Shown here piece by piece: positions 11,604 to 34,420 of a stretch of DNA of 37,370 bases (position 1 is its first letter; each line of letters starts with the position of its first letter). Origin of the DNA: an uncultured bacterium (GTDB lineage: Bacteria; Spirochaetota; Leptospiria; Turneriellales; Turneriellaceae). A program made the position numbers and the translations under genes. The stretch spans positions 1-37,370 of the forward strand of contig CALHRC010000002.1 of the NCBI GenBank assembly GCA_938038265.1, given 5' to 3'. Below the pieces are notes generated by a model. It made no database searches. It saw only the letters and a program-made list of their open reading frames with translations, and was not told the origin of the DNA.

Positions 11604-12590
11604 TTACAGACTTTTGACAAATTCCAATAGGTGCTGGTGGACTTTTTCTTTATCTGTTCTCACCCACTCACTAAATAACACATGGTTTCCATCCACAATT
11701 TCTACTAACCGTTTTTGGTTTTCGGGTGTACTAAAAAGAGCAAAAGCCTTACGCATCGCCAATACAGAAGCTGTTTCATCCTGGTGCTGTTCATCTTGGT
11801 AGTAAACCAACAACAAAACCGGCACTTTTACTTTAGTAAATACCTCCTCACGGGAAGCAAATTCTTTTAGTTGCTGTAGGTTATAAATCGCCGCCAGGTA
11901 CTGTGGCACATACCAATAAGATTCATAGCCCTCTTTTGTCTTAGGGCCACGCGAGCCTGCTTTTACCCGGTACTTACCAATAATGAGCTCACCTAAAGAA
12001 ACACCACCCGGCCACCATAAAATTTTTGCTGTGGGATCTACATAGTCATAAAATGGTGAAGCTAAAATAAGCGCTTGCACTTTGTCAGGATGTTGTGCTG
12101 CTAACCACGTTGCCACCATCCCCCCCATACTGGTACCTATAACAATTACTTTTTTACCCAACAGGGGCATATGGGCCAGGGTTTTTTCAGCAACCGCCAA
12201 ATATTCTTGGAACGGCGTTTGGACATGATCTTCAATATTGGTACCATGCCCCGGTAAGCGGATGTAATAGGTATTGGCCTTAATGGCCGCTGCCAAGCGA
12301 TCTATCGAATATTCTCCTTCTGCCCGACTGGCGCCAAAACCATGGATGTATAAAATTGCATAGTCAGTGAGCCCCTTACTATAGCGCACCAAACGCTCTT
12401 CGTTGTTGGGGCGGGCTTTTGCTTGTTTACTTATTGCAAGCTGCTGTTGGTAAAAAGTGTCAAAGTCAGCAGCGAGCTCAATTTTAGGGGGATGGTAGTG
12501 CGGCAGTGGGCGCAAAACAGCATAGGCAACATAAACAACAGGGATGATAAGAATAGTGATAAAAATTTTTCTTTTCATTATGACAGACAT
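11604..12590 (-). CDS. Membrane-anchored alpha/beta hydrolase
   Basis: A 328-aa serine hydrolase of the alpha/beta-hydrolase fold, in the monoacylglycerol-lipase/esterase group. An N-terminal hydrophobic helix (about 8-26) probably anchors it facing the periplasm. HGFGAS (83-88) forms the oxyanion region, the nucleophile elbow is GTSMG (152-156, S154), the acid is probably in the YYQDEQHQDET segment, and the base is the histidine in DGNHVLF near the C-terminus. The triad therefore looks complete. The gene is convergent with the preceding plus-strand gene, with only 7 bp between stop codons. Substrate cannot be told from sequence. ATG at 12,578 is an alternative start. Confidence 0.87.
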   Translation of the reverse strand: MSVIMKRKIFITILIIPVVYVAYAVLRPLPHYHPPKIELAADFDTFYQQQLAISKQAKARPNNEERLVRYSKGLTDYAILYIHGFGASRAEGEYSIDRLAAAIKANTYYIRLPGHGTNIEDHVQTPFQEYLAVAEKTLAHMPLLGKKVIVIGTSMGGMVATWLAAQHPDKVQALILASPFYDYVDPTAKILWWPGGVSLGELIIGKYRVKAGSRGPKTKEGYESYWYVPQYLAAIYNLQQLKEFASREEVFTKVKVPVLLLVYYQDEQHQDETASVLAMRKAFALFSTPENQKRLVEIVDGNHVLFSEWVRTDKEKVHQHLLEFVKSL

Positions 12591-25083: not shown

Positions 25084-25195
25084 TGTTCAGGAATTCTAAG
25101 AACAAGTGGGGAATTCCCTACAAGAAAACCATCCCCCAAGGGACATAATTTAGCTTTTTAGTAACTAATAGGCCCCTGCGGAGGGCTTGTTAGTT
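25084..25195 (-). repeat. Composite palindromic repeat, inverted copy
   Basis: Order on the plus strand is P3-like TGTTCAGGAATTCTAAGAACA minus its last base (25,084-25,103/4), P2 GGGAATTCCC (25,109-25,118), linker with ATCCCCCAAGGGACATAATTTAGC, then P1 TTAGTAACTAA (25,158-25,168), followed by CCCCTGCGGAGGGCTTGTTAG. The reverse complement of the linker and P1 aligns nearly base for base with the unit at 28,014-28,090. It occupies the intergenic gap between the ECF operon and the PDZ gene. Confidence 0.8.
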
Positions 25196-25280
25196 TACCC
25201 TTTGGATACATTGCTTGGGTGGTTACGGATTTCCTGAACACTGGTTTGGAATAGTTGGGGGGAACTTTTGCCGACAAGCC

Positions 25281-25887: not shown

Positions 25888-25907
25888 TGTTCAGGAATTC
25901 CTGAACA
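25888..25907. repeat. Perfect P3 palindrome, left of the RHH-like gene
   Basis: TGTTCAGGAATTCCTGAACA is a perfect 20-bp inverted repeat. It lies in the divergent spacer between the PDZ gene (start 25,862) and the tandem RHH-like gene (start 26,008). An identical copy lies at 26,469-26,488. Confidence 0.9.
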
Positions 25908-26007: not shown

Positions 26008-26562
26008 ATGAGAGTTAAGGAAGGTACAGCGAAAGCAGAAACGGGTATAAGGGATATCTGGGAAATCCGCCTGGATAAAAAAATGATAAAAACAATCCGT
26101 AAAACAGCAGAGATGCGGGGAACAACCATGTCTTGGATTGCGCGTTTCTGTATTTTCAAATTAGTTCATAAGAAATTGATCCATCGCACTACATTTTACG
26201 ATATGGCAATGGAGATTAGGGCGTCTCAACCTCCGTGCCGGGAATTAGGGCGTTTTTATGTGTGTTTTTACGGAAATGATATTCTTTGGGTCAAGATGCA
26301 GGCAGATGCATTGAATGTCACGGTCTCCATGCTGGTCAGGATTGCTTTGGCACGTTACTTACCACTTTTACAAGACAAGAACCGAATTCCCTGGTGGCGG
26401 TTGTTCTGGTATGGGATTAAAATAAATAAATCGGTAGGTGTATATTCCCTACGAGTCAAACGTTGTCTTGTTCAGGAATTCCTGAACAGTAACTCATACC
26501 TACCCTCCGAATACTGGGACACTCCACCCGGTCCCGTGCCATCCTACCTAACCAACCCATAA
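26008..26562 (+). CDS. Putative tandem ribbon-helix-helix-like DNA-binding protein
   Basis: A 184-aa basic protein with no recognised family name. It contains two similar segments: IWEIRLDKKMIKTIRKTAEMRGTT...SWIARFCIFKL (about 18-53) and FYVCFYGNDILWVKMQADALNVT...SMLVRIALARYL (about 82-115). Each looks like a short beta strand followed by two helices, as in ribbon-helix-helix DNA-binding folds, so one chain could mimic an RHH dimer. TATAAT lies at 25,999-26,004, only 3 bases before ATG, and no ribosome site is visible; a leaderless transcript is possible. The 3' end runs through a perfect P3 palindrome (26,469-26,488), which supplies residues in the LVQEFLNS tail, and another P3 lies 100 bp upstream of the start. 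Inference: it may bind the palindromic repeats. Confidence 0.65.
   Translation: MRVKEGTAKAETGIRDIWEIRLDKKMIKTIRKTAEMRGTTMSWIARFCIFKLVHKKLIHRTTFYDMAMEIRASQPPCRELGRFYVCFYGNDILWVKMQADALNVTVSMLVRIALARYLPLLQDKNRIPWWRLFWYGIKINKSVGVYSLRVKRCLVQEFLNSNSYLPSEYWDTPPGPVPSYLTNP
26469..26488. repeat. Perfect P3 palindrome inside the RHH-like gene tail
   Basis: TGTTCAGGAATTCCTGAACA, identical to the copy at 25,888-25,907. Here it is translated as part of the C-terminal tail (VQEFLNS) of the gene ending at 26,562, suggesting that the repeat was inserted near, and perhaps altered, the original 3' end. Confidence 0.9.
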
Positions 26563-27236: not shown

Positions 27237-27430
27237 ATAAAACCCCCAACACTTCGCATGCTTTCAAAATACCATCCCGCGGATTGACATGCTTTAACTT
27301 GCTTCAGCGTAACCAGCCAACAAATTTCTTTTCAAAGTATGTCTTAGTATCCGAACTTGCCTTCTCTGGCTAAGCTTGTGTTACCCTTGTTTTTTTCAGA
27401 CCAAGGGGCAGGACTTTCTGCATCTTCTGC
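27237..27430. other. Gene-free spacer after pcm
   Basis: No gene or clear RNA is seen. A weak inverted repeat (CCCTTG at 27,384-27,389 and CAAGGG at 27,402-27,407) with a T-run in its loop lies about 150 bp after the pcm stop. The composite repeat array begins just after this stretch. Confidence 0.4.
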
Positions 27431-27691
27431 CTTAGAATTCCTGAACTAAGTAGCAACACTGCTGCTGTGTGAACTATCTCCCGCAGTAAGGATGCTTGGA
27501 TGGTTGAATGCAGGGGGAAACACCTAACAAATCTCGTACCAGCTTAACTGGCCTTAGCACATTAGCTTCACAAATATAATTGCAATAGGCCTTATCCTTA
27601 GAGAAAAGAGTAACCTGCGGCACCTGAAAGTTTGTTAGTTACTAAAACCGACATTATGTCACATGGGGATGGTGTTTGCTATGGAAATCCA

Positions 27692-27719
27692 TACTTGGTG
27701 GGGAATTCCCCACCAAGTA
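27692..27719. repeat. Perfect 28-bp palindrome (extended P2)
   Basis: A perfect inverted repeat whose half-site reads TACTTGGTGGGGAA from the left end, centred on GAATTC. It is the longest P2 copy in the window; other copies keep only the GGGGAATTCCCC core, with arms of variable length. Confidence 0.9.
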
Positions 27720-27722
27720 CCG

Positions 27723-27773
27723 TCCGACAAGAGGTGTCGGATGGTGCCCCTTGTCCGACATGTTGTGTCGGAC
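27723..27773. repeat. TGTCGGA double-hairpin module
   Basis: Two adjacent hairpins: TCCGACA/TGTCGGA (27,723-27,729 and 27,735-27,741, loop AGAGG) and GTCCGACA/TGTCGGAC (27,753-27,760 and 27,766-27,773, loop TGTTG). A degenerate copy, with GTGTCGGATGGCGC and GCGACATTTTGTGTCGG, lies at about 34,268-34,310, again just after a P2 element. Confidence 0.75.
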
Positions 27774-28213
27774 CGGTGTTTTGTCGCGCAGCAAGGTGTC
27801 ATGGATTGGGAATTCCCCCATCTGTTCTTAGAATTCCTGAACAAGGGGATGGTATCACCGCCTTGCAAGGAGCTGTTAGTTACTAAAACAAATATAACGT
27901 TAGATAGATATTATACCTTGCTATAGTTATGGCACCCCCAGTAGGTGGGAAATTCCCCATCTGTTCAGGAATTCCTGAACAAAAATAGAGTTCCATCCCT
28001 GCGTCAGGGCTTGTTAGTTACTAAAAAGCTAAATTATCTCCCTTCGGGGATGGGGAATTCCCCATGTATCCTTAGAATTTCTGAACTAAGTAGCTGTCGC
28101 CTTAGGTAAAGAAAGCCTTGGTTTACCCAAACAGGGGGGTTTTTAGTTACTAAAAGCCACATTATGTCCCATTCATGGTAGGGAATTTCCTATTTGTTCA
28201 GGAATTCCTGAAC

Positions 28214-28320
28214 CAAAGAGCAGCCGGGGGTAGCTAAAGGCCGGGCAGGCTCTGGCAAGGTTTGAGCGGAGAGCGAAAACCGGTGGCCATGCCCCCCTAC
28301 AGGGACAAGCCCGGCTGCAG
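28214..28320. repeat. GC-rich module shared with the left end of the window
   Basis: A GC-rich insert in the repeat region with GCGAAAACCGGTGGCC (28,273-28,288), exactly as at 103-118, and with CAAGGTTT upstream of it and AAGCCCGG nearby in both places. It is followed by CTGCAGCGAGGGGG, similar to the CAGCGAGGGGG beside the terminator at 13.1 kb. It appears to be a second, unrelated repeat family. Confidence 0.6.
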
Positions 28321-28355
28321 CGAGGGGGCGGGCAAGCCCCCTCGTTTACTTTTTT
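28321..28355 (+). terminator. Rho-independent terminator-like hairpin in the repeat region
   Basis: Perfect 9-bp arms CGAGGGGGC (28,321-28,329) and GCCCCCTCG (28,336-28,344) with loop GGGCAA, then TTTACTTTTTT. No gene ends nearby on the plus strand, so it may end a transcript from the repeat array or belong to the GC-rich repeat itself. Confidence 0.6.
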
Positions 28356-28358
28356 GGG

Positions 28359-28397
28359 TGGGGAATTCCCTACCTTAAGTTCAGACATTCTAAGAAC
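28359..28397. repeat. Degenerate P2 and P3 pair
   Basis: P2 as GTGGGGAATTCCCTAC (28,359-28,374) followed by a decayed P3, GTTCAGACATTCTAAGAAC (28,379-28,397). This is the last recognisable piece of the array before glpD. The remaining about 115 bp hold the glpD leader, where no clear promoter was seen. Confidence 0.7.
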
Positions 28398-28514
28398 AGG
28401 GGGAGGCTGCTGCCGTTTAAGTTTGCCTGACATGGGGATTGCCTGGGTCATGGCACAGGGGGAACTTCCTGAAATCGGCTCGACGGGCTGTTTTTACATC
28501 AGAATCTGCTCCAT

Positions 28515-33999: not shown

Positions 34000-34420
34000 T
34001 GAAGTCTTTGCGGGTAAGGCGACCCGTCAAGCGAGAAAAGTTTCTCTTACGGCCTTGCCTTAAGCGGCGCACAGAAACCTACAGCTACCATCTTTATACA
34101 TAGTCTCCTTCACCTGCGGCAGGGGGGCGTCACTCCAGGCCGTTGTCTATTGGTACTTGCATTCCTAAATAAAAGCGGCATTACATCCCCTTGCGGGTTT
34201 TTAGTTACTAAAAAAAGACATTATGTCGCATGAGGGATGTTTTGGGTGAGAAATTCCCCACCAGGCGGCAGGTGTCGGATGGCGCTTTGTGTGCGACATT
34301 TTGTGTCGGATGAGAGTTTGTTGCAGTCTAAAAACAAAAGCGGCATTACATCCCCCCGCAGGGGGCTTGCACGACAAACTCATTTGACAAGCTGTCTCAA
34401 AAACCAGAAATAGCCTGAAT
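34000..34420. repeat. Repeat-bearing intergenic region upstream of lysC
   Basis: Gene-free. P1 with long arms (TTTTTTAGTTACTAAAAAA, about 34,197-34,215) is followed by a linker GACATTATGTCGCATGAGGGATG, a decayed P2 (GAGAAATTCCCCACC, near 34,248-34,262) and the TGTCGGA module (about 34,268-34,314). P3 is missing. GCGGCATTACATCCCC occurs twice, near 34,172 and 34,343, flanking the unit like direct repeats. The left part (34,000-34,150) holds a small GAGAAA/TTTCTC hairpin and nothing else recognised. The lysC promoter must lie here but is not evident. Confidence 0.75.

Follow-up and report, generated by a model that had tools for sequence, protein, structure and literature searches.

Palindrome-bounded mosaic repeat arrays, with palindrome copies inside genes, in the genome of an uncultured Turneriellaceae spirochaete

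The repeat array at positions 27431-28400 of the window, the whole 37,370-nt stretch of DNA that was analysed, is one of more than 100 such mosaics that lie between genes of this spirochaete. Neisseria is the best-known case of mosaic repeat arrays that go together with an uptake word. While the architecture of the present arrays is of this known kind, being like that of the Neisseria NIMEs, the behaviour of their palindromes inside genes is unusual, since a 20-bp palindrome appears to have been substituted, not inserted, into unrelated genes. With slightly less than even confidence, we read the arrays as a mosaic peculiar to this lineage and similar to NIMEs, made of sites that act at the DNA level and are spread by recombination. 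If this were true, a spirochaete would have come to the same architecture with sequences unrelated to those of Neisseria, from which it would follow that such arrays evolve repeatedly and from a general cause.

No gene is called from 27237 to 28514, with pcm and glpD on either side, in agreement with the preliminary description of the region, and the array itself is about 0.75 kb long (Table 1). The four copies of P1 (TTAGTTACTAA) are spaced at exactly 241, 138 and 129 bp, and they are accompanied by six copies of P2 (GGGGAATTCCCC type) and by P3 (TTCAGGAATTCCTGAA type), of which two copies are full and several degenerate or hybrid. The preliminary description had given these P1 spacings correctly, and likewise the GAATTC centres that P2 and P3 share between different arms; over all GAATTC sites of the sample, mixing of the two kinds of arm is almost absent, with a single P2-like/P3-like pair. 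It had further taken the stretch to consist almost entirely of ordered units of three palindromes. The order of P1, P2 and P3 was borne out, whereas about 27450-27630 is without any unit and several modules had been overlooked, namely P4 (ATATAACGTTAKAT), P5 (TATGGAAATCCATA), the double hairpin P6 (TCCGACA-N5-TGTCGGA), a GC-rich module and word M (MCATCCCCC). Moreover, P1 turned out not to be a conserved palindrome, many units carrying TTAGTGACTCAA instead. Variable spacing and repeated linkers led us to reject a CRISPR, none being detected, and no transposase lies nearby, both as first described. A search for tRNAs and Rfam RNAs returned none.

Table 1. Repeat elements in the array between pcm and glpD and elsewhere in the window (positions are those of the window).
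Position	Strand	Element
25085..25240	-	Second, smaller array of the same kind (P3 hybrid, P2, P1, P3-like)
25888..25907	.	Lone perfect P3, intergenic
26469..26488	.	Lone perfect P3 within ORF 26008-26562, VQEFLN frame
27430..27450	.	P3 variant (CCTTAGAATTCCTGAACTAAG), outlying copy
27635..27645	+	P1 (TTAGTTACTAA), first unit; followed by GACATTATGTC at 27650-27660
27665..27672	-	Word M (GGGGATGG; MCATCCCCC on the opposite strand)
27680..27693	.	P5 (TATGGAAATCCATA)
27692..27719	.	P2, extended to a 28-bp perfect palindrome (TACTTGGTGGGGAATTCCCCACCAAGTA)
27723..27772	.	P6 double hairpin TCCGACA-N5-TGTCGGA (27723-27741 and 27754-27772)
27804..27821	.	P2
27823..27843	.	P3 hybrid (TGTTCTTAGAATTCCTGAACA), left edge of type-B cassette
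27845..27852	-	Word M (GGGGATGG)
27876..27886	+	P1 of type-B cassette
27892..27905	.	P4 (ATATAACGTTAGAT)
27919..27934	.	TGCTATAGTTATGGCA hairpin of type-B cassette
27944..27961	.	P2
27962..27981	.	P3, perfect (TGTTCAGGAATTCCTGAACA); cassette boundary
28014..28024	+	P1 of first type-A cassette
28049..28066	.	P2; overlaps word M at 28046-28053
28070..28090	.	P3, degenerate hybrid (CCTTAGAATTTCTGAACTAAG)
28143..28153	+	P1 of second type-A cassette, with ATTATGTC
28177..28194	.	P2
28195..28214	.	P3, one mismatch; cassette boundary
28217..28346	.	GC-rich module (GCCGGGGGTAGC...), repeated in other arrays too
28357..28374	.	P2
28378..28398	.	P3 remnant (AGTTCAGACATTCTAAGAACA), right edge
34201..34260	+	P1-ATTATGTC-P2 unit, divergent intergenic region

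Scanning the genome, an 83%-complete draft of 2.6 Mb in 234 contigs, and its relatives revealed a genome-wide repeat family rather than a single occurrence. P3 (TGTTCAGGAATTCCTGAACA) has 290 sites at up to three mismatches and 255 at up to two, against none for the reversed sequence at up to three, and the combination P1-ATTATGTC has 133 matches, with none for its reversed control and none in 60 relatives. Such numbers are far above chance. The repeats are restricted to this lineage: P3 was absent from 12 other genomes of the same taxonomic family, four of the other 48 relatives contained a single chance-like match each, and an exact search across about 85,000 species returned three single matches. 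No P3 was found in viral contigs, and searching plasmids and phages for relatives of the array gave none. Clusters of two or more kinds of word numbered 118 in the 1.36 Mb that were read, a density that is somewhat high because about 0.26 Mb of this sample had been chosen for P3, and only 4/118 were centred in a gene. Their median length was 142 bp, the larger ones reaching 235-400 bp and more, and the median intergenic gap was 438 bp with elements and 35.5 bp without. P1 is at best slightly biased with respect to gene orientation. Many contig ends adjoin P3, indicating that the repeats break the assembly.

Distances between neighbouring P3 copies are quantised at about 115-120, 132-142 and 178-204 bp, and the natural unit is therefore a P3-flanked cassette. 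The three classes match cassette A (M, P1, ATTATGTC, inverted M and P2; about 95-100 bp), cassette B (P1, P4, CTATAGTTATGG and P2; about 115-120 bp), and A plus B. In the array between pcm and glpD, 27823-27962 is one B cassette, and 27962-28195 comprises two A cassettes with a degenerate P3 between them. Homology between cassettes stops at P3 edges 3.6-fold more often than expected from the covered positions (0.115 vs 0.032), an excess whose sign would be the same if P3 were simply conserved between flanks that have diverged. Units are about 0.72 identical within one array and 0.63 between arrays, and simple tandem duplication of one unit can thus account for the arrays only in part. Among the P3 copies, 17 of about 120 are hybrids with CAG/TTA arms, one base longer, in which the dyad is broken.

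The palindromes also occur inside protein genes. In well-scored genes we found 20 matches to P3, of which 17 lie in a single frame, reading VQEFLN; the other open frame (CSGIPE) was seen once, in a fragmentary gene at the edge of a contig. VQEFLN occurs 11 times, where amino-acid frequencies predict 0.014, and since all 11 are encoded by the same 18 bases, with identical codons, it is the DNA and not the peptide that is conserved. P2 and P5 are found within genes as well. Eight copies of these words in six genes align to homologues without a gap: P5 in triosephosphate isomerase (TIM) and the first P3 in SelO against their closest homologues, and, against the closest relative, two P3 and one P2 in a ROK kinase as well as the copies in a pseudouridine synthase, an exonuclease and an M23 peptidase. 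Judged by these alignments, the eight copies are substitutions and not insertions, which points to a site that the cell uses or copies rather than to a simple jumping element. Gaps do appear close by in more distant ROK homologues, and a P-type ATPase gene with a P3-P2-P3 series aligns with gaps in that region, so that a whole cassette may have been inserted there and some intragenic arrays may be insertions. Part-formed P3 copies, with three or more mismatches, are at expectation in genes, and such a lack of excess is odd for a slow point-mutational drive. The half-site TTCCTGAACA is almost never found outside palindromes (217/229 lie within them). Only P2, P3, P5 and the parS-like TGTTTCACGTGAAACA, which served as positive control, are palindromes above expectation in genes; hence a general mutational production of palindromes was rejected.

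Word M emerged from an unbiased search for 9-mers enriched in genes over synonymous-codon shuffles, which returned ACATCCCCC and CCATCCCCC. It is non-palindromic and occurs 882 times in the genome, mostly within genes, the count of its reversed control being 40; in G005, the relative nearest in protein identity, the two counts are 171 and 62, and the other relatives are near background. Known uptake sequences (DUS of Neisseria and USS of Pasteurellaceae) number hundreds to thousands of copies on both strands, within genes and without polarity, and word M resembles them in its length of 9 bp, its copy number, its presence on both strands and mostly in genes, the enrichment of its one-base neighbours, and the lack of strand polarity between contigs (chi2 86.6, df 111), by which a polar Chi- or KOPS-like role was rejected. 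Its spacing is slightly more even than random (CV 0.92). Taken together, word M has the traits of an uptake sequence and would be a candidate for one in a spirochaete, where no report of such a sequence was found in the literature searched. ComEC is present in the genome and also in 10/14 control genomes, and being near-universal it does not demonstrate competence. P3 is unlike DUS/USS in that it is palindromic, 20 bp long, does not occur as half-sites alone and is concentrated outside genes. P3, P2 and P5 nevertheless share with the USS of Haemophilus that their in-gene copies arise without insertion (PMC1626085).

The closest known architecture is that of the Neisseria NIMEs, in which cassettes of 50-160 bp are flanked by the 20-bp inverted repeat dRS3, ATTCCC(N8)GGGAAT, and form intergenic arrays of 200-2700 bp (PMC3898611; PMC9778887). 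In NIMEs the palindrome also acts as an integrase target. The P3 spacings and cluster sizes reported here fall in with these dimensions, and both systems combine intergenic arrays, a 20-bp element in hundreds of copies and several types of cassettes of about 100 bp with an even commoner short word beside the arrays (PMC3898611; PMC9778887). The sequences are unrelated; P3 is a perfect 20-bp palindrome, belongs to another phylum and, unlike dRS3, also occurs as gap-free substitutions in genes. Since TGTTCAGGAATTCCTGAACA is not the dRS3 sequence, the arrays can be said to work like NIMEs but not to be NIMEs. By likeness to the Neisseria elements, P3 would be a putative recombination junction. 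The array would then be a row of A and B cassettes separated by P3, with P5, P6, the GC-rich block and MCATCCCCC mixed among them, and short dyad-symmetric sites would flank exchangeable cassettes and serve as junctions for recombination in intergenic DNA. P3, P2, P5 and, separately, word M could be kept and spread at the DNA level by recombination or conversion, under selection or drive as for uptake sequences and with no transposase involved; for P3, the spread would be through natural transformation or conversion, with recognition by a protein. Of the three options first put forward for the region, a multi-site array fits best, in the sense of palindromes that behave as DNA-level sites. A more far-reaching proposal, which we regard as tentative and rather doubtful, is that this lineage has come to mark itself doubly and in convergence with Neisseria, by an uptake-type MCATCCCCC and by long palindromes written into intergenic cassettes and genes, where DNA-level copying or conversion would substitute them in place without indels and with few half-formed intermediates. 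The in-gene copies of P3 make the spread of iterated sequence words directly testable.

Non-autonomous mobile elements of MITE- or REP-like type, inserted in intergenic DNA, nested and amplified, with a transposase lost or unassembled, would readily produce modular cassettes in a high copy number confined to one genus. A near-identical 190-bp pair of copies (95.8%) on one contig, whose homology stops just past P3, fits such an origin, as do the inverted copies of M on either side of P1 in intergenic DNA (12 vs 2 within 80 bp). Copies of a MITE are insertions, with terminal inverted repeats and target-site duplications. REP and BIME elements are likewise high-copy intergenic palindromes in mosaic clusters, but REPs are defined by a hairpin that carries a GTAG (or CGTC) tag on one side (PMC3733652), and P2, P3 and P5 are without this tag, confirming the earlier view that the units are not REP/BIME by sequence. 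The 83%-complete genome contains no Y1 (RAYT/IS200) transposase (PF01797), which is present in 5/14 control genomes, and no reverse transcriptase of the retron or DGR kind. The in-gene copies replace codons without indels, which is impossible by transposition. The Rickettsia palindromic elements (RPE) also place a palindromic repeat in reading frames with one preferred frame, as P3 does (17/20), but RPEs have been described as insertions (PMC3733652), in contrast to the gap-free alignments and the 20-bp word seen here. The preliminary suggestion of a mobile element amplified in tandem is thus partly compatible with the data, while the slight likeness within arrays, the lack of Y1 and reverse transcriptase genes and the in-gene copies speak against it, and we consider a mobile origin unlikely. 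DNA-level sites spread by recombination are favoured over a transposase because neither enzyme was found, the in-gene copies are gap-free and the cassettes are delimited by P3.

An array of binding sites for a dimeric chromosome protein, acting in nucleoid occlusion, in condensin loading or as a global regulator, with P3, P2 and P5 as different sites and the arrays as strong clusters, would account for the strict dyad symmetry, for half-sites that hardly ever stand alone, for an excess of specific palindromes only and for the sites kept within genes. It would not lead one to expect several unrelated palindrome families in the same arrays or hybrid P3 copies with a broken dyad, and cassettes with a strong intergenic bias are unusual for such sites, making this explanation improbable. 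HIP1 of cyanobacteria is comparable as a palindrome iterated in and between genes, but a HIP1-like iteration of the core GGAATTCC was rejected, since its excess in genes (60 vs 23.8) is explained by full P2, P3 and P5. No EcoRI-type methylase (EcoRI_methylase), as the cognate methyltransferase that a HIP1-like palindrome would have, was found in the genome.

Transcribed units acting as RNA hairpins (terminators, attenuators, processing sites or small RNA) are very improbable as the main role. The array does fold better than its shuffled versions (z -9.7), but palindromes fold well whatever their role, the consensus fold keeps 2 pairs, there is no Rfam match, and copies in coding sequence are not explained. 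Non-Watson-Crick pairs of P2, in the orientation of P1, favour GU over AC by 41 to 20 with duplicates removed (p 0.01; 0.0008 with double counting), whereas distinct P2 sequences give 30 to 19 (p 0.15) and P3 gives 4 to 7. It is this loss of the GU bias on distinct sequences, together with the nearly empty consensus fold, that disfavours structured RNA, an option of the preliminary description that is weakly supported at best.

Several further observations were made on the repeats. Two nearly identical P3-flanked cassettes of 137-138 bp bracket a lipase-like gene (L034:116-272 and 1426-1583), with homology that stops just past the right P3, and the most regular array seen (L168:24-720) holds A+B cassettes in tandem at a spacing of about 190 bp. 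P6 has constant stems (TCCGACA/TGTCGGA) and variable 5-base loops, is intergenic only and also occurs in L032, L035, L054, L113 and L170. Contigs C19 and C30 (start of L034 and end of L038) overlap by about 309 bp at 98%. In the window, word M or its complement lies at 12116, 12487, 14268, 14657, 15289, 15581, 25129, 31574, 34348, 35364, 35682 and 36080, and the weakly scored ORF 26008-26562, which matches ribbon-helix-helix proteins, carries its perfect P3 near the C-terminus. Two parS-like palindromes (TGTTTCACGTGAAACA) lie within genes on contigs of the same genome. In the coding sequence of L031-L170, GGATATCC occurs 66 times against 24.8 expected, GGTATACC 0 times against 15.2 and CGAATTCG once against 18; the scarcity of the latter two may reflect restriction avoidance.
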